This document shows, in pieces, positions 22,452-38,124 of a stretch of 64,000 bases of DNA. A model generated the notes under the pieces. It had not been told where the DNA came from, searched no databases, and saw nothing but the letters and a program-made list of their open reading frames with translations. Both the position numbers and the translations under genes were made by a program. Each line of letters begins with the position of its first letter. Position 1 is the stretch's first letter. The DNA comes from Flectobacillus major DSM 103 (lineage in GTDB: Bacteria; Bacteroidota; Bacteroidia; Cytophagales; Spirosomataceae), in the NCBI RefSeq assembly GCF_000427405.1, contig NZ_KE386491.1, positions 2,463,001-2,527,000 of the forward strand, written 5' to 3'.

Positions 22452-24056
22452 TTAATAACCAGGGTTTTGGGCAAGCCCCCAGCTTTGTTGTTCGTTCAAT
22501 GGAATTGGCAAAACAGGCACAGGGTTTACAACACCATCTTTAATAGTGTGTTTTTCGCAAGCCACACGACGAGTTGCTGTCAATGCGCTTAAATAACGTC
22601 CTGTTCTTACCAAATCCCAGAAACGAAGAGCTTCCATGCCAAATTCGACACGTCGCTCATGCCAGATAGCCTCTAACAAGGCTTTGCCTGTAACAGAAGT
22701 ACCAACCAATGGCAAAGTTCCAGAAGAAACCACTAGGGCATCGTAAGTCATAGAACCTTCTTTTGAGCCTTTTGGAGCGGTAGCATTTTTGGCACGTGTA
22801 CGAATCTGATTAACCAAATCACGAGCTTCTTGTTCTTTTCCTGTATTGGCGGCGGCCTCAGCTTTTAAAAGAATCACATCGGCATAGCGTATTTTACGGA
22901 TATTTTGGCCAGCCTCTTTTCCTTCGGAAGGCTTCACAATAGCAGCCTTGCGATTGAGGTAGTTAGTCATATTGCCAGAAGGATAAAGAATATCCTCCAC
23001 CTTAGTACCTAACACAACATCGCCTTTTGTATAAACGGTTACGGCTTTTCTTGGGTCGCCGTTTTCAAATTCAGCTACCAACGACGTAGTAGGGTTGTTG
23101 AAGCCCCATCCCCATGTACTACGGTTATTTTGGAAGATATTACTTGATGTACCTATTTTGATAGCTCCCCATGAATTAGTTGATTCAGCTTCTTGAATTT
23201 CAAAAATAGATTCTACATTATTTTCGCCTTCATCTTCCTGAATTTCGGCATAGTTAGCTGTCAAACTGTATTGTCCAGAAGCAATAATAGTACTGGTTAC
23301 ATCATATACATCTTGCCAAGTATGCTTTGCGGTGTTGTCTGTACCAATCTCGTATGCAATTAAGCGAGCCAAATAAGCGTTAGCCGCACCCTTGGTAGCA
23401 CGTCCTAAATCGGCTGGACTATATTCGCTTTTTTCGGGCAACAAAGTAGCAGCTTTTTTGAGGTCGTCTTCAATAAACTTGAATGTTTCGCCCAAAGTAG
23501 CACGTTTAGTTGTTGTATATTCAGATGGCTTTACGGGTTCGGTAAACAAAGGCACACCACCATATACACGAGCCAAGTAAAAGTAAAAATAAGCACGTAA
23601 GAAAGTAGCTTCACCTGTAAGTCGGTCTTTTAGCGAGGCCGAAATATTGGCTTTTTCAAGGTTTTTCAATACGTTGTTGGCTCTATATATACCAGCAAAG
23701 GCATTTGACCAAAGTCCTTTGGCTATATCATTGGCCGAGTTGGCAGTCCAGTCTTTGAGTTCTTGTAAAGCTTGAAAGTCGTTGGTAGTACTCCCTTTTT
23801 CGGCATCGTCCGACATCACATCGCCGTACATCCACTCAAGGTTAGCCCCTACGCCATTATTGTTATATCCTGGGCCTTCTTCCCATCCTGTTACATCGTA
23901 AATGGCATTTACGGCTAAAACGGCATTGTTGGGGTCGTTAAAATACGTTTCTTCGGTTTCTTTCCCTAGCGGTTCTTTATCTAAAAAGTCAGAACAACTT
24001 TGCCCAATAAGCCCTAAAGCTATTAATAGACAAACTTTTATATATCTTTTTCTCAT
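22452..24056 (-). CDS. SusD/RagB family outer-membrane glycan-binding lipoprotein
   Basis: SusD homologue of 534 residues, acting as the hinged lid of the SusC channel. The signal peptide ends with lipobox GQSC (Cys about residue 21), followed by SDFLDKEPLG, the classic SusD N-terminal signature. Tetratricopeptide-like helices follow, with LTGEATFLRAYFYFYLARVYGGVPL and a C-terminal RRVEFGMEALRFWDLVRTGRY, both diagnostic. Length is typical. It lies 64 bases after susC and before the glycan-binding protein gene, so the three are one operon. Manno-oligosaccharide specificity is inferred from the locus. Confidence 0.93.
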   Translation of the reverse strand: MRKRYIKVCLLIALGLIGQSCSDFLDKEPLGKETEETYFNDPNNAVLAVNAIYDVTGWEEGPGYNNNGVGANLEWMYGDVMSDDAEKGSTTNDFQALQELKDWTANSANDIAKGLWSNAFAGIYRANNVLKNLEKANISASLKDRLTGEATFLRAYFYFYLARVYGGVPLFTEPVKPSEYTTTKRATLGETFKFIEDDLKKAATLLPEKSEYSPADLGRATKGAANAYLARLIAYEIGTDNTAKHTWQDVYDVTSTIIASGQYSLTANYAEIQEDEGENNVESIFEIQEAESTNSWGAIKIGTSSNIFQNNRSTWGWGFNNPTTSLVAEFENGDPRKAVTVYTKGDVVLGTKVEDILYPSGNMTNYLNRKAAIVKPSEGKEAGQNIRKIRYADVILLKAEAAANTGKEQEARDLVNQIRTRAKNATAPKGSKEGSMTYDALVVSSGTLPLVGTSVTGKALLEAIWHERRVEFGMEALRFWDLVRTGRYLSALTATRRVACEKHTIKDGVVNPVPVLPIPLNEQQSWGLAQNPGY

Positions 24057-24120
24057 TTTTACAAATAGTTATAATCTTACAAAGAATTGATTTTTGGCTG
24101 CTGCTAAGTAGTTAGCTCAA

Positions 24121-27100
24121 TTAAAAACCAAGATTTAAACCCACACGGAATGTACGAGCAGGTGGATATGTACCTACATCAACACCGTATCCTAGTGGAC
24201 TTCCATAGTATGAACCAACCTCTGGGTCATAACCTTTGTATTTGGTGAAGGTAAATAGGTTATCGGCCGACACATATACACGTGTAGTACGTACCCCAAT
24301 TTTAGAAAGAAGAGCATTGGGCAATGTATAGCCTATTGTTACGTTTTTGAAACGGAAATAAGAACCATCCTCTACGTATCGGTCGCTAAAGCGGTAGTTG
24401 TTGTTAGGGTCAGCTTCTGTTACTCTTGGCTCGTTGGTATTGGTATTAGTTGGTGTCCAACGGTTCAAGCGTTCAGCAATCATATTTGCGCCTAAGTTTC
24501 CTTTTTGGTTAGTAAATGTCAAAGCATTTACTACTTCTGCACCTTGTACACCTTGGAAGAAAAGTTTTAGGTCGAAGCCTTTATAAGAAAAATTAGTAGT
24601 AATACCATACGAGAAATCAGGTGTTCCCGAACCTAAATAGGTACGGTCTTTGCCATCAATAGCGCCGTCGTTGTTCAAATCCACAAATTTCACATCGCCT
24701 ACACGAGCTTCTGGCTGAATTGGCTCACCTTTGCTGTTGACATAAGCTTTTAATTCTTCTTCAGTATGGAAAATTCCGTCGGTTTTAAGGCCATAAAAAG
24801 TAGCAATAGCTTGTCCTACCTCAGTAATAGTCGTATTACCTACTTTAGAAACGTTTCCAGATTCAATTGGAGCACCGCCACCCAACGACGTTACCTTGTT
24901 GTTAATTTTAGTAAAGTTACCTGTTACTTCATATCTAAAATCACCCACTTGATTACGGTAAGTAAGTGCCAATTCAATCCCTTTATTTTCTACGCTACCT
25001 GCATTTACATTAGCTGCCCCAATACCTGCATAAATAGGAATAGGTACTGCTACAATCATGTCGGATGTAGTTTTGATAAAATAATCGGCCGTCAAAGAAA
25101 GTTTGTTTTCTAAGAACGAAGCATCTACCCCAATATTTGAGCTTGTGGTAGTTTCCCATTTCAATTCGGGGTTGCTAGATACCTCTGGTGCAAAACCTGC
25201 AACAGTTTGTCCATTGAAGGTATAAAGGTTATTGCCCTGCATTGTAGTTACATAGCCATAATTACTTGCACTGTTTTGGTTACCTACTTGTCCCCATCCT
25301 GCACGTACTTTTAGGTTATTTACGGCAGTTATGTCTTTCATAAAATCTTCTTCTGTTACGTTCCAGCCAAAAGCAAACGACGGAAATGTACCCCAGCGAT
25401 TAGCCCCCAAGAATCGAGAAGAACCATCACGACGAATTGTGGCTGTTAATAAATAGCGGCTTTTGTAGTTGTAGTTGGCTCTACCAAAAAACGACAAAAT
25501 TGATTCGTCCGATTGGTTACTTTTTACAGTGTATTCGCTAGCATTTTTGGCAGCCGACAAATAAAACTGCGAGGCATCGTTAGGTACGTCGTATGCCGTA
25601 ACCTCCATATCTTTGTATTGATTTTGTTGAGCTTCAGTACCCAACATTACCCCAAATGAATGGTCTTTGATAGTTTTGTTGTAAGTAGCATAGTTAGACA
25701 ACACCCACTGAGCCGACTCGCCACGGCGTTCCCACAACGAGCTTCTATCGCGTGCTTCGTCGGTTGCAATAAAAAACTTAGGCGAATAGCTTTTGTTATG
25801 TGTATTGTTATAATTGATACCCAATTGGCTACGGAAAGTAAAGTCTTTCAAGAATTTAGCTTCTGCATAAATATTACCATTGATTAGGCTACCGTACCCT
25901 TTGTTGTTTTTTAATTCATCCACCGATCGGGCAGGGTTGTTGGTAGCAGACATATCGGCACGTCCCCAGTTGTTGGTATTTTTGTCCCAAGCAGGTGTAA
26001 TAGGGTCTGCGGCTAACGCTGTTGTCAATACGCCAGAGTATAAATCGCTGTTATAATAGGTTTTATCAAATCTTGAGAAAGCAATAGATACTCCTGAAGT
26101 CAACCATTTGGCCAATTGCAAATCGTTATTAAAACGTAAGAAGTATTTTTTCATACCTGAGTTTTTAATCAAACCATCTTGCGAGAAAATCGTTCCTGTT
26201 AGGCTATAACGGCTTTTTTCTGTACCACCCAAAACATTTAAGCTATAATTGCTAATCAAAGCTTGCGAGCTCATCACTTCACTTTGCCAGTCGGTACCCC
26301 TAAAACCACCCTCTTTGGCGTAAGTTAAACGGTTCAATATATTGTTGTCGGCAGGAAGAGTAGTACCATCATTGGCAAAAGCTTCCAAACGCAATGTAGC
26401 ATATTCAGAGGCATTCAACATCTTGATTTTACGAGCGGCATCTTGTACACCCGAATAAGCATCGAAGGTAAACTGAGCTTTTTCAGATTTTTTACCTCTT
26501 TTGGTTGTAATCAGCACTACGCCATTGGCTCCACGCGAACCATAAATAGCTGTAGCCGAAGCATCTTTCAATACCTCCATTGTTTCGATATCGCCAGGAG
26601 CTAAAAATGAAATATCACCTGTTTGAAAACCATCTACTACATATAATGGGTCAGAGTTGTTGATAGTACCTACCCCACGAATACGAATACGAGCTCCAGC
26701 ACCAGGCTCACCCGACTCAGAAGAAACATCTACCCCAGCAACACGTCCTTGCAAAGCTTGTACTACATTGGGCGTAGCCACTTGAACCAACTGCTCAGAC
26801 TTTACGGTAGCTACCGAACCCGTTAAATCGCTTTTCTTTTGAGTACCATAACCCACCACTACCACTTCGTCGAGTGATTTGGTGTCGCTTGCCAAAGCTA
26901 CATCTATGGTAGAACGCCCACCAATAGCTATTTCTTTTGACTGAAAGCCCACCGAAGAGAATACTAATGTTTTGGCGGTTTCAGCAACTTTGATGGTAAA
27001 CTGTCCTTGAACATTGGTAGCTGTTCCTACTTGTGTTTCCTTTACCCTAACTGTTACTCCTGGTAGAGCCTCACCGTTACCATCTGTCACTTTTCCTGTG

Positions 27101-27177
27101 ACGGTCTTTTGCCCCTGAGCCAAAGTAGTAATAATACTACTCAAAAACAGAAAACAAAAGAATAGTAGTTTTTTCAT
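24121..27177 (-). CDS. SusC/RagA family TonB-linked outer-membrane transporter
   Basis: TonB-dependent outer-membrane importer, 1,018 residues, expected to move mannooligosaccharides into the periplasm. I use the start at 27177 (MKKLLFFCFLFLSSIITTLAQ signal peptide); another Met lies two codons upstream. A carboxypeptidase-like regulatory domain (about 24-105, VTGKVTDGNGEALPGVTVRV) precedes the TonB-box-like SLDEVVVVGYGTQKKSDLTGS, the plug domain (about 120-230, with IRIRGVGTINNSDPLYVVDG) and the 22-stranded barrel ending in GLNLGF. It is shorter than many SusC proteins of 1,050-1,100 residues but complete. First gene of the operon, divergent from the AraC regulator. Confidence 0.95.
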   Translation of the reverse strand: MKKLLFFCFLFLSSIITTLAQGQKTVTGKVTDGNGEALPGVTVRVKETQVGTATNVQGQFTIKVAETAKTLVFSSVGFQSKEIAIGGRSTIDVALASDTKSLDEVVVVGYGTQKKSDLTGSVATVKSEQLVQVATPNVVQALQGRVAGVDVSSESGEPGAGARIRIRGVGTINNSDPLYVVDGFQTGDISFLAPGDIETMEVLKDASATAIYGSRGANGVVLITTKRGKKSEKAQFTFDAYSGVQDAARKIKMLNASEYATLRLEAFANDGTTLPADNNILNRLTYAKEGGFRGTDWQSEVMSSQALISNYSLNVLGGTEKSRYSLTGTIFSQDGLIKNSGMKKYFLRFNNDLQLAKWLTSGVSIAFSRFDKTYYNSDLYSGVLTTALAADPITPAWDKNTNNWGRADMSATNNPARSVDELKNNKGYGSLINGNIYAEAKFLKDFTFRSQLGINYNNTHNKSYSPKFFIATDEARDRSSLWERRGESAQWVLSNYATYNKTIKDHSFGVMLGTEAQQNQYKDMEVTAYDVPNDASQFYLSAAKNASEYTVKSNQSDESILSFFGRANYNYKSRYLLTATIRRDGSSRFLGANRWGTFPSFAFGWNVTEEDFMKDITAVNNLKVRAGWGQVGNQNSASNYGYVTTMQGNNLYTFNGQTVAGFAPEVSSNPELKWETTTSSNIGVDASFLENKLSLTADYFIKTTSDMIVAVPIPIYAGIGAANVNAGSVENKGIELALTYRNQVGDFRYEVTGNFTKINNKVTSLGGGAPIESGNVSKVGNTTITEVGQAIATFYGLKTDGIFHTEEELKAYVNSKGEPIQPEARVGDVKFVDLNNDGAIDGKDRTYLGSGTPDFSYGITTNFSYKGFDLKLFFQGVQGAEVVNALTFTNQKGNLGANMIAERLNRWTPTNTNTNEPRVTEADPNNNYRFSDRYVEDGSYFRFKNVTIGYTLPNALLSKIGVRTTRVYVSADNLFTFTKYKGYDPEVGSYYGSPLGYGVDVGTYPPARTFRVGLNLGF

Positions 27178-27220
27178 GTTCATGATTATCTGTGTATAAT
27201 TTATTGATATTTTAACAAGA

Positions 27221-27475: not shown

Positions 27476-28348
27476 ATGACAAAAATTATACGTGAAATAA
27501 CACCACTAACACAAAGTGACTGCTTCACATTCTTTTCTAGGGTAAAAAAAGAATTTAATTTCCCTTTACATACCCACGAAGAATTTGAACTAAACTTTAT
27601 CATGAATGCCAAAAATGCAAAACGTATTGTAGGCGACCATACCGATGTTATCGAAGATTTAGAGCTGGTATTGGTGGGTAGCAACTTACCTCATGCTTGG
27701 TTTACGCATCAGTGTCAGAGCGAGGAGATCAAGGAGGTTACCATTCAGTTTCACCGTGATTTATTTGATGATAAATTCCTAAAACGCAATCAATTAAGCT
27801 TTATTCGGGCTTTGTTAGAGCGTTCGGCAAAGGGTATTTTGTTTTCGCCCGAAACGGCTCTGGCTCTTAAACCAAGGTTTCTAAACTTGCACCAAAAAAG
27901 CGGCTTTGATTCGGTTTTGGAATTGATGTCTATTTTGCACGATTTGTCGATTTCTAGAAATATGCGAACCTTGTCAAACACTTCTTTTTCTAACGAATCG
28001 CTTTCATACAATAGCAGAAGAATTGAAAAGGCTTTTGAATACATGCAGGCTAATTATGATAAAAATATTACCCTAGAAGAAATGTCGAAGCTAGTAGGTA
28101 TGACCGAGGTATCTTTTAGTAGGTTTATAAAAAAACGTACTGGCAAAACCTTTATCGACAGCCTAAACGAAATAAGAATAGGACACGCTTCTCGCCTTTT
28201 GATAGATACTACTCATACGATTGCTGAAATATCCTATCAAACGGGTTTTAATAATTTGTCATATTTTAATCGAATTTTCAAAGCCCGTAATGGCTGTACT
28301 CCAAAAGAATTTAGAGAGGATTTTTCTGGTACTCGAACTTTTATTTAG
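27476..28348 (+). CDS. AraC family transcriptional regulator of the mannan locus
   Basis: Cytoplasmic 290-residue regulator. Residues about 10-130 form a cupin-like sensor region (NFPLHTHEEFELNFI is typical of the sugar-sensing AraC branch). Residues about 185-285 form the double helix-turn-helix: LEEMSKLVGMTEVSFSRFIKKRTG for the first helix pair and TIAEISYQTGFNNLSYFNRIFKARNG for the second, closing with the conserved PKEFRE. It is divergent from susC, which suggests it activates that operon. The shared direct repeats near both mannan promoters are good candidate binding sites. Soluble AraC-type rather than a hybrid two-component regulator, because no membrane segment or kinase domain is present. 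Confidence 0.88.
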   Translation: MTKIIREITPLTQSDCFTFFSRVKKEFNFPLHTHEEFELNFIMNAKNAKRIVGDHTDVIEDLELVLVGSNLPHAWFTHQCQSEEIKEVTIQFHRDLFDDKFLKRNQLSFIRALLERSAKGILFSPETALALKPRFLNLHQKSGFDSVLELMSILHDLSISRNMRTLSNTSFSNESLSYNSRRIEKAFEYMQANYDKNITLEEMSKLVGMTEVSFSRFIKKRTGKTFIDSLNEIRIGHASRLLIDTTHTIAEISYQTGFNNLSYFNRIFKARNGCTPKEFREDFSGTRTFI

Positions 28349-28388: not shown

Positions 28389-28429
28389 ATATTGTCCTAT
28401 TAGCAAGCAAATTGCTAATAGGACAATAT
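28389..28429. terminator. CCTATTAGC-family inverted repeat (bidirectional terminator)
   Basis: A perfect 17-bp stem (28389-28405 with 28413-28429) with a 7-base loop lies between the convergent AraC and aminotransferase genes. It shares the TCCTATTAGC core with hairpins at 8736 and 41224. Confidence 0.75.
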
Positions 28430-28435
28430 ATTATT

Positions 28436-29638
28436 TTAAAGAGCGTCGATACTTTCCAATAGTATTTGACAAGCTTTTCTAATTTCTTCGTCGGAAATAA
28501 TCAACGGTGGAGCTATTCGCATAGAATTATCACAAAACAAGAACCAGTCGGTAATAACGCCTTTTTCAATTGCACGGTCGATGACTGGTTTGAGTACGTC
28601 AAAATTTTCAAACTCTACGGCCATCATCAATCCTTGGTTACGAACTTCCCTGATAATTGGATGCACCAATAACGATTTAATCAAATCGGCTTTGGGAGTT
28701 ACGTATTCATATAGCTTTTCTGACTGAATAACCTGCAAAGTAGCCAATGAAGCTGCCGCCGACACTGGATGCCCTCCGAAGGTAGTAATATGTCCTAAAA
28801 TCGGATTATTTTTAAACACTCCCATTACCTCATGGTTGGCAATGAACGCTCCAATAGGCATACCGCCTCCCATTCCTTTGGCTGTAGTAAGAATATCTGG
28901 ATAAGCACCAAATTGTTCAAATGCCCAAAAAGTACCTGTTCTTCCAAATCCCGACTGAATCTCGTCGAATACCAGCAACGTACCTGTTTCGTCACATCTG
29001 GCCCTTAGTGCTTTAAAATATGCTTTATCGGGTACACGCACTCCTGCCTCGCCTGCAATAACCTCGATAATAACCGCAGCCGTTTGAGTAGTAATATGAG
29101 TAATATCATCAAAATTACCATGCCTGATATTACGCATCATGGGCAACAATGGCCTAAAATTGCGCTTAAAGTTTTCGCTCCCCGACAATGACAATGCACC
29201 TTGTGTAGCTCCATGATAAGCATTGTAGCACGAAATAATTTCGGGTTTGTTGGTATATCGCTTGGCCAATTTCATTGCACCTTCAATAGCTTCAGTTCCC
29301 GAATTCGTAAAATAAACATTATCTAAAGGGGCTCGTTCGCCTGCCGATGCTTTTAGGGTTTCGGCCAAAGCTGCCGCCAATTGTACTTGGGGCGTTTGCA
29401 CGTATTCGCCATAAACCATCAGGTGTAGGTACTTGTCAACTTGGTTTTTGATAGCTTCAACTACCTTTGGATGCCTATGCCCAACATTAGAAACGCCAAT
29501 TCCCGAAATCAAATCCATATAAGGCTTGCCATTTTTTCCGTACAAATACAGTCCTTCGGCACGCTCTATTTCCAACGCCAAGGGAAAATCAGACGTTTGG
29601 GCAACATTCTTTAAGAATAACTCTCTCTGCGTAATCAA
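28436..29638 (-). CDS. Class III PLP-dependent aminotransferase
   Basis: Cytoplasmic 400-residue pyridoxal-phosphate aminotransferase of the acetylornithine/4-aminobutyrate type. Visible features: YMDLISGIGVSNVGHRHP near the N-terminus, FTNSGTEAIEGAMKLAKRYT for cofactor phosphate binding, VFDEIQSGFGRTG with the cofactor-binding Asp, and Schiff-base Lys254 in TTAKGMGGGMP. The omega-amino acceptor substrate cannot be read from sequence. It is last in a co-oriented row of ligase-type genes, but 322 bases and a possible promoter box at 29671 separate it from the previous gene, so it may be independently expressed. It could supply an amino group for the product of that cluster or act in ordinary ornithine, lysine or beta-alanine metabolism. 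Confidence 0.85.
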   Translation of the reverse strand: MITQRELFLKNVAQTSDFPLALEIERAEGLYLYGKNGKPYMDLISGIGVSNVGHRHPKVVEAIKNQVDKYLHLMVYGEYVQTPQVQLAAALAETLKASAGERAPLDNVYFTNSGTEAIEGAMKLAKRYTNKPEIISCYNAYHGATQGALSLSGSENFKRNFRPLLPMMRNIRHGNFDDITHITTQTAAVIIEVIAGEAGVRVPDKAYFKALRARCDETGTLLVFDEIQSGFGRTGTFWAFEQFGAYPDILTTAKGMGGGMPIGAFIANHEVMGVFKNNPILGHITTFGGHPVSAAASLATLQVIQSEKLYEYVTPKADLIKSLLVHPIIREVRNQGLMMAVEFENFDVLKPVIDRAIEKGVITDWFLFCDNSMRIAPPLIISDEEIRKACQILLESIDAL

Positions 29639-29654
29639 AATCTTCTTTTATTTT

Positions 29655-29885
29655 ATGATGAATTTTGCTACAAAAATACAACATTTTAAACGAAAGGCAT
29701 TGCTCTGGCTTATGTATCCTACAAGTGAATATGTTTACGATATAATTGACAAAACTACGCATACAAGATTAACAATCGGCAGAATATTACATTTTATTGA
29801 CAAAAAAGCGTTACCCAATATTCGTTCGGAATTCTACAAAGAATATAAAAATCACTTTGTGAAAGTCCTTAAAAACATTGTGTAA
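29655..29885 (+). CDS. Uncertain small ORF, 76 residues
   Basis: A 76-codon frame with two adjacent ATG starts and a plausible composition (residues 18-76 are rich in Tyr, Lys, Ile and Asp, with no low complexity). It has no signal peptide, membrane helix or recognised domain. It fills the gap between two minus-strand genes, and a minus-strand promoter box at 29671 overlaps its start, which argues against it. It could be a real small gene or chance. Confidence 0.3.
   Translation: MMNFATKIQHFKRKALLWLMYPTSEYVYDIIDKTTHTRLTIGRILHFIDKKALPNIRSEFYKEYKNHFVKVLKNIV
29671..29678 (-). promoter_or_regulatory. -7 box (TATTTTTG) before the aminotransferase gene
   Basis: The minus-strand match to TAnnTTTG lies 33 bases upstream of the start codon at 29638. 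No clear -33 element was found. It suggests the aminotransferase can be transcribed apart from the ligase genes. Confidence 0.4.
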
Positions 29886-29960
29886 CGCTGTTAGGCTAAA
29901 ATACTCATCAATAGGCTGTTATACAAAAACCCTTTGATCCATACACGTAGTATTATTTGC

Positions 29961-31157
29961 TTATTTTTCCATAAAACAAACCGTTCCTCCTACCCAATCA
30001 AAATCTTTGTTGTATCGTACTCCAATCATTTCGCCACGCGACAACCGAGCCAGATTAGTCATTAATAGCGGCTTCGGTTCGTTTTTATGCCAAACATACA
30101 ACAATCGAATTTCGCATTTTACCTTACTTCCATCAGTAGTTTCTATGACAGGCACATAATTCACTTTTCGTTGTAAAATATATTCTTCTGGTTTGTCGAT
30201 AGCTTCTAAATCGGCCTTTGTTACATTGATAATTACGCCACTTCCTGCAAATGAAAACAAGGGTTTTAGTACATAATTATGCAAATCTGCGGGAAAATCA
30301 CCTGCAAAATCGCTCAAATAACGACTCTCGGGAATATAAGGACTCTTGAGCAGTGGCAAGATATACTTACTAATTCTAAAAAACCAATTAGGATGCCCTA
30401 CCCATTCTACATCCACATCGTCGGTAAAAGTAAACTCTGTAGTAAGGTCTGGAAAACTGGCTAAGTCATCAAATATCAATCTATTATAAATCCTTTTGAT
30501 AATTATTTTCTCGCCTGCTTCCTCATAAAAAAGAGTTCGTCCTTCTTTTTTGATACGAGTTAGGCATACGGCTTTTACACCCAACAATTTTTCTGTTACA
30601 GCAAAATCTATTCGTGTTTTCTGAATTTCTGGGTAAATTTCTAGTAAAATCACATTTTTAGGGTCTTCTTGGCCAATAATCAATGCTTTGAGCTGAGCAA
30701 GATAATCTGCTCGGCTAAGGTTATTGAACAAAAAATCAAAATGCTCGGGTATAGGAAAATGTTGTTGAAATTGCTGAGAAAGATAATATTGAAATCCAAA
30801 AAGAGAAGGAAAGCCCTGTAATTCAATCAATTGAGGCTCTAGCTCGCCTTGGTCATTTTGGCAAACAGCAAAATCTATCGCCAAAAATGAAGTATGGTCG
30901 TTTTCGTTTGGAACATTCTGATAAACAGGAATTGCTTTTTCGGTAAGTTGTCTAAACTGCTCGTTGGTGAGTACCTCCACAATACTTTCGCAAGCATTGA
31001 GGAGTTTATTCCGAAAAGCTTGAGGTACAAAAACGGGTGTTTCGGCCACTCTAAAATCCAAAGAATCGGGATACTCTGCTTGAATAGATGCTAAAAACGC
31101 TTGGTATTTAGGGGCTGTAAAAAAGCTATTATATTGTAGTCTTGCTTCGGAGTGCAT
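29961..31157 (-). CDS. ATP-grasp-like protein of the amidoligase cluster
   Basis: Cytoplasmic 398-residue protein that I cannot name precisely. It looks like a divergent ATP-grasp enzyme: FLAIDFAVCQNDQGELEPQLIELQGFPS in the N-terminal third, IIIKRIYNRLIFDD in the middle, and a C-terminal nucleotide-binding-like region with VLKPLFSFAGSGVIINV (lysine plus glycine-rich loop) and YILQRKVNYVP, where ATP-grasp enzymes place the adenine-contacting residues, then CEIRLLYVW. Proteins of this kind are usually annotated as hypothetical or as glutathionylspermidine-synthase-like. It follows the glutamine amidotransferase gene by 66 bases, with a strong hairpin between them. The likely role is ATP-dependent amide bond formation on an unknown carboxylate. 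Confidence 0.65.
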   Translation of the reverse strand: MHSEARLQYNSFFTAPKYQAFLASIQAEYPDSLDFRVAETPVFVPQAFRNKLLNACESIVEVLTNEQFRQLTEKAIPVYQNVPNENDHTSFLAIDFAVCQNDQGELEPQLIELQGFPSLFGFQYYLSQQFQQHFPIPEHFDFLFNNLSRADYLAQLKALIIGQEDPKNVILLEIYPEIQKTRIDFAVTEKLLGVKAVCLTRIKKEGRTLFYEEAGEKIIIKRIYNRLIFDDLASFPDLTTEFTFTDDVDVEWVGHPNWFFRISKYILPLLKSPYIPESRYLSDFAGDFPADLHNYVLKPLFSFAGSGVIINVTKADLEAIDKPEEYILQRKVNYVPVIETTDGSKVKCEIRLLYVWHKNEPKPLLMTNLARLSRGEMIGVRYNKDFDWVGGTVCFMEK

Positions 31158-31171
31158 AATTCAAATCAAAT

Positions 31172-31219
31172 CGGATGGCCCTATCCGAATCTAAAGTGAG
31201 AAACGGACAGGGCCATCCG
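31172..31219 (-). repeat. Intercistronic GC-rich inverted repeat
   Basis: Two 16-base arms (31172-31187 and 31204-31219) pair with one mismatch around a 16-base loop. The left arm can also fold on itself. It fills most of the gap between the amidotransferase and ATP-grasp-like genes. The T-run that follows on the minus strand is weak, so partial termination or mRNA protection is more likely than full termination. Confidence 0.7.
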
Positions 31220-31223
31220 TTGA

Positions 31224-32078
31224 TTATTGAATCGTTGTATTTTGTAAAATAGCATTAGCTGCATTTTTCAAAAATCGGGGAATAATTACCGATTCGGTCA
31301 GCATAATTTTATCGGGGTCGGCCAGATGCTCAACCATACTATTATATTTTGCCAACCCATGCGATTTTACGACTGCATGACGCTTTTCGTCTGTTTGCAA
31401 ATAACGCAACATACCTTCACCGTCGGCCTCGGGATGAAACTGTGTCCCAAACACTTCATCAGAAAAGCGAATCGCCATGATAGCTCGCTCTAAGTTAACG
31501 TGTGGGCGTTCTTTTTCTAATCGCAAAATACTAATTCCCAACGACTTAATCCTCTTTAAGTTGGGACGTACCAACTGATAATCCCTAGAGTCGACAACAT
31601 AAAATGGCTCGGGCAAGCCTTCAAAATAAGGTTCTGAACCCGAAGCCTCAATCCGATGTACAGGAAATACGCCAAAAGAAGTACTTCTACGTTTAGAAAC
31701 TGTTCCTATGCCCAAATAACGCGACACCAATTGGAAAGAATGACATATCAAAAACATGTATTTTCGACTAGCTTGTCCTTTCAGGACTACATCGGAAATA
31801 TTATGAGCAAACACAGCGTCGATAAAATCGAAATAGGGCTTTTCCCAAGGTTCGTCGGAAGGCAACGGACTACCCGGCCCACCTGTAGAAATATAAATAT
31901 CGTAGGTTAAATCAGGAACAGTATTTTCGGCTCTTACATTAAAAATTTGATAATCTATTGCAATATGCTCGTGTTCTTCAAAGCTTTTCAGTAAATTCAA
32001 AATACAACGCATTCCTTCATTTGGAACGTTGTTATACATATCTAAAATCGCAATACGAAGTGGTCTTTCTTTCATCAC
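31224..32078 (-). CDS. Class I glutamine amidotransferase-like protein
   Basis: Cytoplasmic 284-residue protein with a full class I amidotransferase triad: nucleophile Cys112 in LICHSFQL, and His215 and Glu217 in TQFHPEADG. The oxyanion strand STGGPGSPLP is also present. Such domains hydrolyse glutamine and hand ammonia to a partner synthetase, or act as gamma-glutamyl hydrolases. There is no fused synthetase, so a neighbouring ligase (GCS2 or ATP-grasp) is the probable acceptor. The Cys is followed by His rather than the usual Gly of GMP-synthase-type nucleophile elbows, suggesting a divergent subgroup. The last 60 residues extend beyond the domain. A promoter box at 32152 may drive it. Confidence 0.8.
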   Translation of the reverse strand: MMKERPLRIAILDMYNNVPNEGMRCILNLLKSFEEHEHIAIDYQIFNVRAENTVPDLTYDIYISTGGPGSPLPSDEPWEKPYFDFIDAVFAHNISDVVLKGQASRKYMFLICHSFQLVSRYLGIGTVSKRRSTSFGVFPVHRIEASGSEPYFEGLPEPFYVVDSRDYQLVRPNLKRIKSLGISILRLEKERPHVNLERAIMAIRFSDEVFGTQFHPEADGEGMLRYLQTDEKRHAVVKSHGLAKYNSMVEHLADPDKIMLTESVIIPRFLKNAANAILQNTTIQ

Positions 32079-32151
32079 TCATACAAAATTTAACAGACAA
32101 TAACCTTGATAATCTTTTTATTGCCAAACACTTAACAAATCGTTTAAGGTA

Positions 32152-32159
32152 CAAAATTA
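32152..32159 (-). promoter_or_regulatory. -7 box (TAATTTTG) before the amidotransferase gene
   Basis: The minus-strand match to TAnnTTTG predicts a start near 32145 and a 67-base leader. A TTTG lies upstream but at 14-base spacing, shorter than usual. It suggests an internal promoter in the ligase cluster. Confidence 0.4.
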
Positions 32160-32262
32160 GGCATTTTGATTATCAAAACTTTGTTAAATTTTAACAATTC
32201 CATAATTTGAGGAATCATCCTGATAAACGAGCGACAAAATCATATTGTATCTTATTTCTTTC

Positions 32263-33363
32263 CTAAAATATGCCCTGCTTGGTTTCTTCTACGATATAAT
32301 CTACGACTTTTTTCAAATCTTGTGTTTGCTCGAACACCGCCAATTGTCGGTCGGCACCAGTACCATGATCTAGGATTTGTTTGATATACTCTACTTCCTG
32401 TCGACTTCCTAGGTCGTCGAGAACGTCATCTACAAAGTCTAACAGTTCATCGCACAAATTTCGATAAGGCACTTCTTCTTGCTTACCAAAGTCGATAAGC
32501 TTGCCCTGAATACCATAACGAGCCGCACGCCATTTGTTTTCGTTGATAAGTACACGGCGGTAGCTTCTAAAATTGAGGTTTTGTTTGAGCAATTTATATA
32601 TTTTGGCAACCAAAGCCTGCATCAATGCCGCCAGGCAAATCGTTTCATCGGCACGCATTGGTATATCACAAATTCTAAATTCGATGGTATCGAAATAGGG
32701 GTGCAAGCGAATATCCCACCAGATTTTTTTACCGTCGTCGATACAGTTGGTTTTTACTAACAAATTCACATAATCGTCGTATTCGCTTGCCGAACTAAAA
32801 AATTCGGGAATACCTGTACGAGGAAACTTATCAAAAACCTTTGAGCGATACGACTTAAAGCCTGTGTTACGCCCACACCAAAATGGTGAATTGGTAGATA
32901 AGGCGTAAATATGGGGTAAAAAATATCGCACAGCATTCAAGATTTGTAACCCCTGATTACGGTTTTCGATACCTACGTGTACGTGCAAACCAAAAATAAG
33001 ATTTCCTCTGGCAACATCACGCATTTCGTCGATGAGGGCATCGTATCGTGGGTTGTCGGTAATGAGTTGGTCTTGCCAATCGGCAAAAGGATGCGTACCC
33101 GCAGCGGCTACTTGTAGATTTTGGGCATCGGCAAGTTCAATAATATGTTTTCTTAAAAAGATGACCTCTTCTCTTGCTTGCTGGATATTGTAACAAATAT
33201 TCGTACCAACCTCCACTACAGCTTGGTGCATTTCGGCCTTTACTCTTTCTTGCAACGATATTTTACCGCCTTCCACAATTTTACTCATGTGCGAACGCAA
33301 ATCTCTAGTAACAGGGTCGATTGTCTGAAATTCTTCTTCAATTCCTAGTGTAAATAAAGGCAT
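32263..33363 (-). CDS. GCS2-family carboxylate-amine ligase (YbdK-like)
   Basis: Cytoplasmic 366-residue ligase of the glutamate-cysteine ligase type 2 superfamily, which activates a carboxylate with ATP and joins it to an amine. Typical features: LGIEEEFQTIDP at the N-terminus with metal-binding glutamates, EMHQAVVEVGTN, AAAGTHPFADWQ, and the FGLHVHVGI strand with two histidines, then IEFRICDIPM. Length is normal for YbdK. YbdK proteins have weak glutamate-cysteine ligase activity in vitro, but their natural substrates are largely unknown. Placement among two ATP-grasp-type genes, an amidotransferase and an esterase argues for a specialised biosynthetic role rather than glutathione synthesis. 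Confidence 0.88.
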   Translation of the reverse strand: MPLFTLGIEEEFQTIDPVTRDLRSHMSKIVEGGKISLQERVKAEMHQAVVEVGTNICYNIQQAREEVIFLRKHIIELADAQNLQVAAAGTHPFADWQDQLITDNPRYDALIDEMRDVARGNLIFGLHVHVGIENRNQGLQILNAVRYFLPHIYALSTNSPFWCGRNTGFKSYRSKVFDKFPRTGIPEFFSSASEYDDYVNLLVKTNCIDDGKKIWWDIRLHPYFDTIEFRICDIPMRADETICLAALMQALVAKIYKLLKQNLNFRSYRRVLINENKWRAARYGIQGKLIDFGKQEEVPYRNLCDELLDFVDDVLDDLGSRQEVEYIKQILDHGTGADRQLAVFEQTQDLKKVVDYIVEETKQGIF

Positions 33364-33596
33364 ATTGGTTTAATGATTAAAGGCTTGGACTACTGTTTAG
33401 CTATACGAAAGATTGGAGATATTCCGAAGTCTGCAATAACATTCAACCTTTCGTACAGGATTATTAGTGAATGGGTAATTGTAAGATGAATTACCTTTGC
33501 ATTTGTGTAATTTCAATACTTTTACATATCAATAAAAACCTGATAATCAATACATTCATTACAAAACTACTCACCCACAAATGATGATATACAGGA

Positions 33597-34583
33597 TTAT
33601 TTTTTCCCAAATGTTGCAATAGAACTTCTATCGGCACCTACTACCGACGACTGCACAAATGTACCCCAAGTAAGGTTGTCCTTGCCAGGTTTATGCTTTT
33701 TGGCACGATCTATTGCAAACTTGGCTGCGGTTTCAACCACCCAATCGAAATTTTCTTGTCCAACCGAATTAACATCGGCATCAGGAGCAGGGTTACAAAA
33801 ATCAATTGCATAAGGGACACCGTCACGTACAGCAAACTCTACAGTATTGAAGTCGTATCCTAAAGCTTTGTTCAGCAACAAAACATATTCTTTTACGGTA
33901 GCAAGCAGCTTTTTAGCGGCTGGCCCAGTAGGTAATTGAGCATCATATCGCAAATGATGTGGGTTACGAGGCTCGTAAGGCATTATTCTCACGTCTTTTC
34001 CACCAATACAGTAGCATCTAAAATAATCAGTAAAAAGAATTTCCTCCTGAAGAAGCATTACTAATTGACCAGTTTCGTCGTAGGCATTAAATAATTCATC
34101 AGGATTTCTTACTTTATAGACATTTTTCCAACCTCCACCCGAGTGTGGTTTCATATAGGCAGGAAATCCTATATAGTCAAAAACATCGCCCCAAGGCATC
34201 GGGAACTTGAGATTTCGGAACGACGTATCGGAAGTGTCGTCTGGACGTACTTTTGATGGCAAAATAACCGTTTTGGGGACTGGTACACCCACATTTACAG
34301 CAAGGGCATTGTTAAAAAACTTTTCATCGGCACTCCACCAAAAAGGGTTATTGATAACAGCTGTACCTACCATTGCCGTATTTTTGAGCATAGCTCTATA
34401 AAAAGGAACATCCTGCGAAATACGGTCAATCAACACATCATACCCCGACGACTCCCCTTGTACCACTTTATCAATAATTGCTCTTTCAGCAATGATTCCT
34501 TTTGGAGCAATCTGGTTCACTCTTTCTACAAATGCCTCTGGAAAAGTGCTTTCCATTCCATGAAGGATACCAATTTTTTTCAT
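33597..34583 (-). CDS. RimK-like ATP-grasp carboxylate-amine ligase
   Basis: Cytoplasmic 328-residue ATP-grasp enzyme. The N-terminal preATP-grasp part (MKKIGILHGMESTFPEAFV) precedes the central domain with FPAYMKPHSGGGWKNVYKV (ATP-binding Lys and glycine-rich loop), LLQEEILFTDYFRCYCIGG (hinge and conserved Arg) and the C-terminal metal-binding NTVEFAVRDGVPYAIDFCNPAPD, where Glu and Asn ligate magnesium. This is the fold of RimK and D-Ala-D-Ala-type ligases, forming an acyl phosphate and then an amide. The substrate is unknown. It is second in the row, between the esterase and GCS2 genes, separated by 215 and 233 bases that hold no recognised gene. Confidence 0.85.
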   Translation of the reverse strand: MKKIGILHGMESTFPEAFVERVNQIAPKGIIAERAIIDKVVQGESSGYDVLIDRISQDVPFYRAMLKNTAMVGTAVINNPFWWSADEKFFNNALAVNVGVPVPKTVILPSKVRPDDTSDTSFRNLKFPMPWGDVFDYIGFPAYMKPHSGGGWKNVYKVRNPDELFNAYDETGQLVMLLQEEILFTDYFRCYCIGGKDVRIMPYEPRNPHHLRYDAQLPTGPAAKKLLATVKEYVLLLNKALGYDFNTVEFAVRDGVPYAIDFCNPAPDADVNSVGQENFDWVVETAAKFAIDRAKKHKPGKDNLTWGTFVQSSVVGADRSSIATFGKK

Positions 34584-34798
34584 AGTAACTCTATTAAATT
34601 AAGATTTATACCACCTACTTACAATGAGAAGCGTACGAAAGTTGAGATATTACATCAGGTTAGGGATTTTTTATTTCAGAATAACATTGAAATCGTTTTA
34701 TTTTCCCAAAATCAAATATCCGATAGCTGAAACGTTCCAACTCTTACTTACACTACCAACTTCTCATAATTATTGTGTGATAATGGATTGGTTAATAA

Positions 34799-35503
34799 CT
34801 ATATTCTACTTAAATATTCAGGAAACATTTCTCGCCAAATCGGCCAATCGTGTGTACCATGCCAGCGAATATCGAGCCAATGGCTAATACCTTTGCTAGC
34901 CAAAATTCCCGAAAGGCGTTCGTTTGAGGGTTTACAGAAATCGGCATTACAAGTACCCAATACAATATTCATTTGCCAAAGATTAGGATTATTAAGATTG
35001 GGCAAATAGTCGGGTGGGTTGTTGTAAAAAACGTTATCGTTGTAAAAGCCATCCATAAATGAGCGTATATCAAAAGCAGCTCCCATTGTAAACAAATGAG
35101 ATACTTTTTCGGGATGGCGAAAGGCAAAATTAGCCGCATGAAAACCACCAAAACTACAGCCTGCTACTGCCACTTTGGCTACGCCACATTCTCGTTGAAT
35201 AGCAGGAATAAGCTCATCGTTGAGGTAGTTATCGTAGTATATATGGTTTTGGATGCGTTCGGATGGATGTAGATGCTTGCCGTACCATGAATAGCGATCG
35301 ATACTATCGGGGCAGTAAATTTTAACTTTTCCCCCATCTATCAAGCTTTTGGCAGAATCTATCAGCTTAAAATCTTTGGCTTCATAATAACGCCCCATAG
35401 TGGTAGGAAACACAATTACGGGATATCCCCAATGGCCATAAATCAGCATCTCATTATCGGCCCCCAAGTGGTGAGAATAGTACTTGATATAACGTTCTTG
35501 CAT
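34799..35503 (-). CDS. Alpha/beta-hydrolase, esterase family
   Basis: Cytoplasmic 234-residue esterase-D-like alpha/beta hydrolase with no signal peptide. The nucleophile elbow is GCSFGG with Ser117, and the catalytic His is His218 in HGTHDWPIW. An early QERYIKYYSHHLGADNEMLIYGHWGYPVIVFPT segment is characteristic of a group of Bacteroidota and proteobacterial proteins of about 230 residues found next to ATP-grasp ligases. It may cleave or transfer an acyl or peptide bond in the cluster product, for example release or deprotection; that is inference. It is the first gene of the six-gene row. No exact promoter box was found in the 261 bases upstream. Confidence 0.8.
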   Translation of the reverse strand: MQERYIKYYSHHLGADNEMLIYGHWGYPVIVFPTTMGRYYEAKDFKLIDSAKSLIDGGKVKIYCPDSIDRYSWYGKHLHPSERIQNHIYYDNYLNDELIPAIQRECGVAKVAVAGCSFGGFHAANFAFRHPEKVSHLFTMGAAFDIRSFMDGFYNDNVFYNNPPDYLPNLNNPNLWQMNIVLGTCNADFCKPSNERLSGILASKGISHWLDIRWHGTHDWPIWREMFPEYLSRI

Positions 35504-35764: not shown

Positions 35765-37069
35765 CTATTGCTCAAACTCGATAATATGTTCAGACGCATA
35801 TTCATCGTCGCCTGGTTTAATTCTTTTAACAAAAAATCTGGCTTTTTTCCCTAGCCTCAAACACGTGTTTTTTGCCCGAATATCTTCAGGTGTATTTAAG
35901 GGCTGCAACGACGGATACCATAAAATATACCCAGGTTTTTCAAATACCAGTTGAGGGCTGCTCCACTCCTGTGTATTGAGGGCTTGGCTCAAATCTTTAT
36001 TTTTATTGAATGATATATATACTTTGCTTCCCTGCCACGATTTCCCTTCCGACTTAGCCATCATCATAACCCAACAATTCAAATAGGTATTCCAACTTAC
36101 AGAAGGCCCCCAATGATACCCTGCTGTTGGTGATGAAGCCGCACCGCCTTTTTGTGAGATGGGTATTTGCAAAGACTGAATGGGTTTTCCTATGCCATTG
36201 TAAGGTATTGTAAAACCCGTGCCATCCCAGCGTTTGGCCTTACCAACAGGATTGTCGAGGTCTTGTAGGGCTATTCGTGCTACGCTAATACACTGGCCAG
36301 CCCACTCGGTTTGGGTATTATAGGTTTTTTCGTTGTAATCGGCAGGATACCCATATTCTCCATAAAACAAATAAAGGTAATCGCCACTAGCTACTGCCGA
36401 AGGGTCGCCAACACCTCCTGCAAAAGTGTTGGAAGTATTGTGGGGTTTCAAAATCATACGGGCGTTGAGGTCTTCAATAAAAATCCCTTTGTTTGCCCAA
36501 CTTCTTCCTCCATCTATCGACTTCATGATACCAATTCTACAAACAGCGGCTGGGCTAGTTTCACCCGTTAGTCCTTGTGGCCACTTTTCATTTTTATATC
36601 CTTCACCTGTCGACGGGTTATAAGGTAATGTAGCAGGGTAATTTTCGTTATGATATACTGCAAAAAGAGTTTTGCCAGATGAGTCTTGGGGGCTTTGAAA
36701 TACCGTTTCAAACCACACTGCTCCATGCAAACCTACCTGCCCTACGGGTACATTGGGAGGCATAAGAGGGTCATGAAAATCTTGGGCTGTACTTTTAAAA
36801 ACCTCTTCAGCATTTTTGCCACTAGCAAACTTTAAATTTTTTGAATATCCCCAAAGTGGGTCTTCGCCGTACTTCCCCGGAAAAATCCTAAAGGTATCGC
36901 CAATCCAGACCTCCGCCATATTGCAGTCAACAAAAGAATTAAACTTGATTTTTTCGGCCTTGAGCAGCTTAAAATGCGGTATCCGTTCGGTCTGCTGACA
37001 TCCTATCAAGTAAAATACGGTACTCAAAAAAAATACAATAAGTACTAAACTTTGTCTGTTGGTATGCAT
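35765..37069 (-). CDS. Lipoprotein with DUF4185-like propeller
   Basis: Predicted 434-residue lipoprotein. The signal peptide ends in lipobox LIGC (Cys about residue 24). The body looks like a five-bladed propeller of the DUF4185/GH43-like type: MAEVWIGDTFRIFPG, the Asp-box-like SIDGGRSWANKG, VGDPSAVASGDYLYLFYGEYG, YHWGPSVSWNTYLNCWVMM and GYILWYPSLQPL. Proteins with this arrangement bind or cleave glycans, but the catalytic residues cannot be pointed out with confidence. It is monocistronic and divergent from the esterase at 37258, sharing a 188-base promoter region. It may belong to carbohydrate scavenging without being part of the mannan locus. Confidence 0.7.
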   Translation of the reverse strand: MHTNRQSLVLIVFFLSTVFYLIGCQQTERIPHFKLLKAEKIKFNSFVDCNMAEVWIGDTFRIFPGKYGEDPLWGYSKNLKFASGKNAEEVFKSTAQDFHDPLMPPNVPVGQVGLHGAVWFETVFQSPQDSSGKTLFAVYHNENYPATLPYNPSTGEGYKNEKWPQGLTGETSPAAVCRIGIMKSIDGGRSWANKGIFIEDLNARMILKPHNTSNTFAGGVGDPSAVASGDYLYLFYGEYGYPADYNEKTYNTQTEWAGQCISVARIALQDLDNPVGKAKRWDGTGFTIPYNGIGKPIQSLQIPISQKGGAASSPTAGYHWGPSVSWNTYLNCWVMMMAKSEGKSWQGSKVYISFNKNKDLSQALNTQEWSSPQLVFEKPGYILWYPSLQPLNTPEDIRAKNTCLRLGKKARFFVKRIKPGDDEYASEHIIEFEQ

Positions 37070-37257: not shown

Positions 37258-38124
37258 ATGAAATTTTATTTTCAATTCATCTTAATTTTATTTTCTTTTA
37301 CAACTAGCTTCTCACAACAAAAAAAGAAAAACGTGCAAATAACCACATTTAAAGAAGACAGTATTTACTCTCATTATCTCCAACGACAAGTACAGCTTAG
37401 TCTCATTATACCTAATAAAGTCGGGCATTCAATGGAACTATTGTTGTGCAATGATGGGCAAGATTTTCCTGCATTACACCTTCAGCCTACGATTGATTCA
37501 CTGTTGGCTCATCATCATACAAAAGCTTTTTTGACAGTGGGTATTCACGCCAACGATAACCGTATTAACGAATATGGTACAGCAGCACAAGCCGACTACA
37601 AAAATCGAGGAAATAGAGCAGGCTTGCATGCCTTATTTGTTATCAATGAATTAATTCCCTATTTAGAACACCACTATGCTATTCAACGCAGCTCGGAGGC
37701 TAGGGTTTTTGCGGGGTTTTCGTTAGGTGGCCTTTCAGCATTCGATATTGTGTGGCATAATGCACAGGTTTTTGCCAAAACAGGGGTTTTTTCGGGGGCT
37801 TTGTGGTGGCGACAAAAAGCTGAGGAAGATGGATATACCGACGAACATGACCGTATTATTCATAAATTAGTAAAGGCGGGCTTGTACAAGCATGGACTTA
37901 AATTCTGGTTTCAGGCTGGTACAAACGATGAAAAAGACGATAGAAATAACAATGGTGTTATTGATGCTATTGACGATACCCTCGACCTAATAGCGGCTTT
38001 AAAAGCAAAGGGATACCACCACAATGACGTTCATTATCATGAAGTGGCTGGCGGCGAGCATAATCCTCACACATGGGGAAAGGCGATGCCTCATTTCCTG
38101 AAATGGGCTTTTGGCAGTGAGTGA
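37258..38124 (+). CDS. Secreted esterase family alpha/beta hydrolase (PF00756-like)
   Basis: Exported 288-residue serine esterase of the enterochelin esterase/esterase D type. A signal peptide covers residues 1-19 (ending SFSQ). The nucleophile is Ser155 in AGFSLGGLSAFD, an acidic residue lies in QAGTNDEKDDRNNNGVID (which also resembles a calcium loop), and the base is the His in VAGGEHNPHTW near the end. Close relatives release feruloyl or acetyl groups from plant polysaccharides or hydrolyse siderophores. Its stop codon is formed inside the first unit of an 8-bp tandem repeat, so the array begins exactly at the gene's end and cannot alter the protein. Confidence 0.82.
   Translation: MKFYFQFILILFSFTTSFSQQKKKNVQITTFKEDSIYSHYLQRQVQLSLIIPNKVGHSMELLLCNDGQDFPALHLQPTIDSLLAHHHTKAFLTVGIHANDNRINEYGTAAQADYKNRGNRAGLHALFVINELIPYLEHHYAIQRSSEARVFAGFSLGGLSAFDIVWHNAQVFAKTGVFSGALWWRQKAEEDGYTDEHDRIIHKLVKAGLYKHGLKFWFQAGTNDEKDDRNNNGVIDAIDDTLDLIAALKAKGYHHNDVHYHEVAGGEHNPHTWGKAMPHFLKWAFGSE

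Follow-up and report, generated by a model that had tools for sequence, protein, structure and literature searches.

A conserved cluster of free-standing ligases and hydrolases in Flectobacillus major and other Bacteroidota that may assemble a small peptide-like metabolite

The stretch of DNA analyzed here (the window) comprises 64,000 nucleotides of Flectobacillus major DSM 103 (contig NZ_KE386491.1, positions 2,463,001 to 2,527,000), and its positions 28436 to 35503 hold six genes for an esterase (est), an ATP-grasp ligase (AG1), a carboxylate-amine ligase (GCS2), an enzyme of the class I glutamine amidotransferase (GATase) fold (GAT), a second ATP-grasp-like protein (AG2) and a class III aminotransferase (AT3). 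A preliminary description of this DNA had read them as an amidoligase-type cluster in one orientation, and all six open reading frames (ORFs) were found intact on the minus strand. A second esterase gene, EST2, lies outside this interval. The genes and two associated hairpins are as follows (window positions; aa, amino acids; nt, nucleotides; bp, base pairs).

35503-34799, minus strand: est, alpha/beta hydrolase, Pfam Esterase/Abhydrolase, 234 aa
34583-33597, minus strand: AG1, ATP-grasp ligase with a predicted Ddl/LysX/RimK-like fold, 328 aa
33363-32263, minus strand: GCS2, YbdK-family carboxylate-amine ligase, 366 aa, GhExE signature intact
32078-31224, minus strand: GAT, class I GATase-fold thiol enzyme, gamma-glutamyl-peptidase-like, 284 aa, GTG start
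31157-29961, minus strand: AG2, divergent, probably circularly permuted ATP-grasp protein, 398 aa
29638-28436, minus strand: AT3, class III aminotransferase of 400 aa from a TTG start, at the end of the unit and lineage-specific
37258-38124, plus strand: EST2, second esterase, PF00756, enterochelin-esterase-like, divergently transcribed
31173-31217, minus strand: strong hairpin between GAT and AG2, 45-nt window, folding free energy −31.4 kcal/mol, a possible terminator or processing site
28389-28429, plus strand: terminator-like hairpin with an 18-bp stem between AT3 and a convergent AraC gene

The conservation of the neighbourhood was checked in 80 named loci, the best 80 of at least 590, which were collected with AG1 and in which families were counted from ORFs of at least 80 aa. 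The full order, defined as the five core genes (est, AG1, GCS2, GAT and AG2) standing consecutively on one strand with each gap below 1,500 bp, is kept in 55 of the 80 loci. Neighbouring pairs were found in 72 loci for est-AG1, 73 for AG1-GCS2, 64 for GCS2-GAT, 59 for GAT-AG2 and 15 for AG2-AT3; these order counts are lower bounds, since contig ends cut some of the loci. AG1 itself was counted in 79 of these loci and the other core families in 60–72, and outside the core, EST2 is the most frequent (53 loci), followed by a gene found in 21 loci. The gene neighbourhood is not due to chance. The aminotransferase, which had been taken as a member of the set, is intact in the window but is not a core gene; it is a lineage-specific addition to the unit.

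The core genes are often closely packed in the relatives, where gap values were obtained from gene starts extrapolated from tblastn matches. In 22 of the 80 loci none of the four core gaps exceeds 120 bp, and in 15 of these none exceeds 45 bp; GAT and AG2 overlap by 4–8 bp in six of the 22, and in a Lacihabitans locus (L098; L and G numbers are our own for loci and genomes) the six genes including AT3 are spaced by 6, 1, 33, 4 and 3 bp. Since the gaps do not exceed 45 bp in the 15 compact loci, a precursor or carrier gene cannot fit between the core genes there, which bears out the earlier remark that the set has neither. Likewise, no precursor gene of a graspetide or another ribosomally synthesized and post-translationally modified peptide was found between the core genes of the compact loci, small flanking ORFs and genes elsewhere being unexamined. 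The packing also bears on whether AG1 might act on a protein in the manner of RimK or LysX, with GAT and the esterases as removers of the added group. The structural model of AG1 matches both RimK and the LysW-using enzymes LysX/ArgX, as such tagging would suggest; however, a small carrier or target gene does not fit into the compact units, and no further family of at least 80 aa occurs in more than 21 of the 80 loci, smaller flanking ORFs and distant targets being unexamined. Modification of a protein is therefore considered improbable.

The genes are also inherited together. Each protein was searched for in the same 101 genomes of the family, and matches were found in 88 genomes for AG1, 88 for AG2, 87 for GAT and 87 for GCS2. 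The same 13 genomes are without AG1, GCS2, GAT and AG2, and 87 of the other 88 carry all four; the sole discordant genome (G067) is 71% complete, and its AG1 and AG2 are partial. The genes are retained where the unit is split: in G031, contig 64 carries est, AG1 and GCS2, contig 4 carries GAT and AG2, and EST2 is found on contig 32; in G055, contig 13 holds est, AG1 and EST2 and contig 1 holds GCS2-GAT-AG2; and in G143 the three ligases lie hundreds of kilobases apart on one contig, all of them kept. The fact that three ligases stay together though scattered would point to one conserved small molecule rather than to a strain-specific secondary metabolite.

A set of 296 genomes of the phylum, in which ten GCS2 matches of 42% identity or less were dropped before counting, gave matches in 108 genomes for AG1 (four of them distant), 92 for AG2, 93 for GCS2 and 70 for GAT. 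AG1 and AG2 occur together in 89 genomes, AG1 only in 19, AG2 only in 3 and neither in 185; for AG2 and GCS2, the corresponding numbers are 87 (both), 5 (AG2 only), 6 (GCS2 only) and 198 (neither). Among the 19 genomes with AG1 and without AG2, GAT is present in 15, and the AG1 matches of the other four are distant, with 32–44% identity. In three genera that show both states among the genomes listed (g1, g38 and g46), presence and absence are mostly concerted. It is very likely that these genes form one dedicated pathway.

Within the window itself, the gaps are wide (66–322 bp) and the strong hairpin stands between GAT and AG2. Zero matches to Rfam were obtained in the window at gathering scores, and no full match to the Bacteroidota promoter pattern was found between the genes, where −7-like elements only were seen. 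The wide gaps and the hairpin would suit a set of unrelated housekeeping genes that happen to lie side by side; the conserved order, the concerted presence and absence in the 101 and 296 genomes and the retention after splitting make this explanation hardly credible. Because the order is conserved and the genes are mostly kept or lost together, the genomes display neither of the two situations that the preliminary description had named as contrary to it, namely an unconserved neighbourhood and independently expressed housekeeping enzymes.

The preliminary description had included one esterase. This enzyme, est, is real and scores above the Pfam cut-offs (PF00756, 31.6 against 22 bits; PF00561, 32.1 against 25.8 bits), but the second one, EST2, had been overlooked. 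In the 53 named loci that have it, EST2 is encoded upstream of the unit on the other strand, and where est was called too, the two are usually no more than 200 bp apart; among the 80 named loci, it was not seen in, for example, those of Algoriphagus. Its membership in PF00756 was tested for the window copy and for L093, and it resembles enterochelin esterase at a score below the cut-off for that family. In the window, a gene for a protein of 434 aa (35765-37069, minus strand) separates EST2 from est, and a relative of the same genus (G001) shows the order EST2-est-AG1-GCS2-GAT-AG2-AT3 without that gene. Among the family genomes, EST2 was matched in 85 of the 88 AG1-positive and 0 of the 13 AG1-negative ones. 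EST2 belongs to the unit, though it stands outside 28436-35503. For est, a match was found in 91 of the 101 genomes, including all 88 AG1-positive ones; outside these, there are a copy of 79% identity in G053 and distant paralogues (35–37%) in G005 and G010.

The likeness of EST2 to enterochelin esterase had raised a siderophore as a candidate product, and this reading was lowered in view of the loci, where beyond the core and EST2 no family occurs in more than 21 of 80, these families being annotated in part. As a separate observation, an alpha/beta hydrolase matching S33 is inserted between est and AG1 in seven of the 80 loci (L056, L061, L062, L070, L074, L090 and L094), six of which are titled Cyclobacteriaceae; the S33 match was tested for L056.

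With respect to the ligases, neither AG1 nor AG2 matches a Pfam family at E ≤ 0.01. AG1 had been called RimK-like, and this holds in part: its AlphaFold model (pLDDT 81.8) gave 571 matches in the PDB at E ≤ 0.001, the best 50 of which are Ddl, LysX/ArgX, RimK and other ATP-grasp ligases, but its score of 27.4 bits is far below the RimK cut-off of TIGR00768 (143.4 bits). As judged from the model, AG1 is predicted to have the ATP-grasp fold. ATP-grasp ligases act via acyl phosphates.

GCS2 scores above the cut-offs of PF04107 (213.6 against 21 bits), PRK13515 (562 against 371 bits) and TIGR02050 (308 against 176 bits). The GhExE motif, defined in PMC2588565 as the Mg/ATP signature, is present, and all 17 aligned members share G7, E9 and E11. 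In enzymes of this type, a carboxylate, usually the gamma-carboxyl group of glutamate, is phosphorylated and then joined to an amine (PMC2588565). A second GCS2 paralogue of 37–41% identity was observed elsewhere in five family genomes (G044, G048, G068, G078 and G097). The aminotransferase AT3 scores 339 against 30.5 bits for PF00202, and it is closest to ArgD-type enzymes, yet below the TIGR00707 cut-off (353.7 against 410 bits).

AG2 had been described as a second ATP-grasp-like protein. Its sequence gave a weak match to YgiC (E 0.0032), and the profile comparison with hhalign gave an E value of 3.5e-5 with a probability of 72% over 85 columns, where the control comparisons AG1-YgiC and AG2-AG1 gave E values of 0.3 and 0.27, respectively. 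YgiC is annotated in the database as a peptide-spermidine ligase and is cited as such in PMC12568646. Of 22 AG2 members compared with Pfam at E ≤ 1, six reached GSP_synth (best E 0.006), five CP_ATPgrasp_1 and four CP_ATPgrasp_2, with scores below the cut-offs; a weak relation was also found to a circularly permuted ATP-grasp family, f5 (E 0.015 and 0.009). These weak similarities suggest that AG2 is probably a divergent, circularly permuted ATP-grasp protein, so that the earlier assignment stands in a more tentative form.

GAT passes the PF00117 cut-off (29.6 against 22.8 bits), and its residues Cys112, His215 and Glu217, together with the GGPG loop, are invariant in 37 of 37 aligned sequences, in agreement with the catalytic triad noted earlier. 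From these features it had been proposed that the enzyme supplies ammonia from glutamine. The model of GAT (pLDDT 91.9) has the uncharacterised SMU.1228c as its top fold match, and ranks 2–4, 6–8 and 10 are taken by Arabidopsis gamma-glutamyl peptidase 1 (best 9k7i, E 8e-13), whose chains reach TM scores of 0.63–0.68 at 15–16% identity. Ranks 5 and 9 are DnfC and TM1158, which are titled glutamine amidotransferases; after the top ranks come MetA, which a profile search by sequence also touches as an acyltransferase, and the glutaminase domains of GMP and aminodeoxychorismate synthases. The PF00117 score, the intact triad and the matches at ranks 5 and 9 mean that GAT may have glutaminase activity, in which case ammonia would be handed to a ligase and the product would carry a primary amide. 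However, gamma-glutamyl peptidase 1 outranks the titled amidotransferases, and the nucleophile motif of GAT is C-H-S-F-Q, whereas that of glutaminases is C-x-G-x-Q.

The distribution of GAT bears on the same question. Of the 296 genomes, 34 hold AG1, AG2 and GCS2 without this GAT, and an M29-type metallopeptidase stands in its place in two loci (L138 and L163). A constant association of GAT with a synthetase was not found among the ligases tested, AG2 being missing from 15 GAT-bearing genomes and GCS2 from 13. GAT accompanies AG1 where another ATP-grasp protein replaces AG2, and it accompanies AG1 and AG2 where GCS2 is missing; because its partners vary among loci in this way, there is no fixed synthetase partner. 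Its lack in 34 three-ligase genomes and the peptidase found in its stead favour a hydrolase acting on an amide intermediate over a dedicated supplier of ammonia, so that the ammonia-feeding role appears unlikely, though it is the strongest of the alternatives considered here.

The distant loci provide natural variants of the unit. Of 40 such loci fetched, AG1 was called in 37. The order AG1-GCS2-GAT-AG2 was found in L160, L166 and L167, and AG1-GCS2-AG2 without an adjacent GAT in L130, L131, L161 and L162, the genomes of L161 and L162 having GAT elsewhere; L144 has AG1-GCS2 alone. In L138 and L163, the M29-type peptidase stands between GCS2 and AG2 and neither genome has a GAT match; the Pfam match of this peptidase was tested for L163, and L138 was assigned by clustering. 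AG1-GAT-AG2 without GCS2 occurs in L164, L165 and L168, in whose genomes no GCS2 match was found. In L132, L133, L152, L153 and L159, the order is AG1-f5-GAT, and in L156 it is AG1-f5, where the CP_ATPgrasp_2 match of f5 was tested for L132. The ligases and hydrolases thus appear to be exchanged within their kind, as would be expected of a modular amide pathway, and the variants (GCS2 missing, a metallopeptidase for GAT, another ATP-grasp protein for AG2) can be regarded as natural experiments on the order of steps. A further ATP-grasp family was observed beside the cluster at 13136-14314 of L132, 1341-2555 of L166 and 11345-12553 of L168, its ATP-grasp_4 match being tested for L132.

The combination of enzymes might also serve catabolism. 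In a route similar to the Puu pathway, GCS2 would gamma-glutamylate an amine, the amine would be oxidised or transaminated by AT3, and GAT would remove the gamma-glutamyl group; the class III aminotransferase, the GATase-fold hydrolase and the gamma-glutamyl ligase do resemble PuuE, PuuD and PuuA in kind. However, AT3 follows AG2 in 15 of the 80 named loci, GAT is missing from many ligase-bearing genomes, and two additional ATP-grasp ligases would be left unexplained. In addition, since no further family was counted in more than 21 of the 80 loci, a constant oxidase or dehydrogenase was not seen among these partly annotated families. A catabolic role of this kind is accordingly regarded as quite unlikely.

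The best reading is that free-standing ligases build an amide or peptide-like metabolite, and a carrier-free assembly is inferred from the chemistry of GCS2 and ATP-grasp enzymes and from the gene set. More specifically, we propose a carrier-free pathway that makes, inside the cell, a small metabolite with several amide bonds, probably of the gamma-glutamyl type, and assign to this proposal a probability of roughly 0.45. GCS2 would phosphorylate a carboxylate, most likely the gamma-carboxyl group of glutamate, and join it to an amine; AG1 would add a second unit through an acyl phosphate; and AG2, with its weak likeness to YgiC, would attach another amine or amino acid, perhaps to the carboxyl terminus. 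As a thiol hydrolase of the gamma-glutamyl-peptidase type, GAT would serve to trim, unmask or recycle an intermediate carrying the gamma-glutamyl group and would not feed ammonia to a synthetase. The preliminary description had an esterase release the product, which is at most one candidate role for the two enzymes; as serine hydrolases, est and EST2 may cleave ester or amide bonds of the product or of its conjugate, and AT3 may make or consume an amine unit in one lineage. In four genomes of one family that are without GCS2, the first step would be done differently or skipped.

Several observations weigh against this proposal. GCS2 is missing in 5 of the 92 AG2-positive genomes, the four just named among them, so that a gamma-glutamyl start is not obligatory everywhere, and G244, G254 and G319 hold AG2 and GCS2 with no AG1 match. 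AG1 stands without an adjacent partner ligase in 18 of the 37 distant loci; AG2 and GCS2 lie mostly elsewhere in the genomes of those 18. The co-occurrence counts are uncorrected for phylogeny, and the Fisher p-values for the 296 genomes are tiny but ignore shared ancestry. In G053, which is of the same genus, est is retained without matches to AG1, GCS2, GAT, AG2 or EST2; this is the copy of 79% identity (L172, 8441-9154), and because it is kept in a different gene setting, est may have a separate use. The PF00117 score, the intact triad and the ranks of DnfC and TM1158 count here as well in the case of GAT. For AG2, the window protein is below the cut-off of PF03738 GSP_synth (13.6 against 29.3 bits), the AG2 profile A1 reached YgiC with hmmsearch at an E value of 0.086, and Escherichia coli glutathionylspermidine synthetase gave an E value of 0.39 with hhalign. 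The present data show the gene set with its order and its packing in relatives, the co-occurrence across genomes, the predicted folds of AG1 and GAT and the conserved catalytic residues of GCS2 and GAT; the substrates, the sequence of reactions, the AG2 fold and the identity of the product are what we infer.

Among known systems, the route from glutathione to glutathionylspermidine (gamma-glutamylcysteine ligase, glutathione synthetase and GspS; YgiC/YjfC) is alike in that a GCS-type ligase and two ATP-grasp ligases act without a carrier. The likeness of AG2 to YgiC is weak (the profile E value of 3.5e-5 given above, and a score below the GSP_synth cut-off), and the present cluster differs in adding a GATase-fold hydrolase and two esterases. 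There is a small chance that the product is a gamma-glutamyl-peptide-polyamine or a similar capped peptide, a counterpart of glutathionylspermidine made by distantly related ligases and turned over by a dedicated gamma-glutamyl peptidase and the two esterases. If this were true, roughly one third of Bacteroidota would have a glutathionylspermidine-like pathway that is for the most part retained or lost as a whole. A link to polyamines was sought through nspC and dropped: since 100 of the 101 family genomes have this gene, among them 12 of the 13 without the pathway, it does not discriminate. A role as a low-molecular-weight thiol was also considered and given less weight in view of PMC6282198, according to which Bacteroidetes have, or are predicted to have, thiols of the bacillithiol type, with gshA-B genes reported elsewhere.

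Another likeness was described in 2008 (PMC2588565), where a ligase family of GCS2 size beside a GATase-like thiol peptidase or a gamma-glutamyl cyclotransferase was predicted to make glutathione-related peptides. That system shares the linkage of a GCS2-sized ligase with a GATase-fold peptidase; it differs in having another ligase family and in being from proteobacteria and firmicutes, and AG1, AG2 and the esterases are unmentioned in the relevant part of that paper. In pseudouridimycin biosynthesis, PumK and PumM similarly act in succession as free-standing carboxylate-amine ligases on a small molecule (PMC6586884), but this is a Streptomyces cluster for a nucleoside-based antibiotic, and the likeness to AG1, GCS2 and AG2 is by description of function. 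Free-standing amide-ligase neighbourhoods are a known kind.

Mixed neighbourhoods of ATP-grasp, GCS2 and GAT genes were reportedly surveyed by Iyer et al. in 2009 (Mol. BioSyst.), possibly including the present one. Among the literature matches listed, judged by title and the start of the abstract, a published description of the cluster was not found. What is mainly new in the evidence is that the genes are inherited in concert, that a second esterase belongs to the unit and that the unit varies among lineages.

Regarding the flanking genes, a large glycosyltransferase encoded downstream of AG2 in Mucilaginibacter loci was compared with the large neighbours in L160-L163 and did not match them. 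By eye, the N-terminus of the 434-aa protein encoded between est and EST2 resembles that of a lipoprotein, and neither Pfam nor NCBIfam gave a match to this protein at E ≤ 0.01; its gene is absent at that place in the same-genus relative L173 and may therefore be a recent insertion. The AraC-family regulator gene (27476-28348, plus strand) is convergent with AT3, the hairpin with the 18-bp stem lying between them, and a match to it was not found beside the cluster in L173. Further along, two adjacent genes at 22452-27183 on the minus strand resemble, by eye, a SusD/SusC (RagB/TonB receptor)-like pair.

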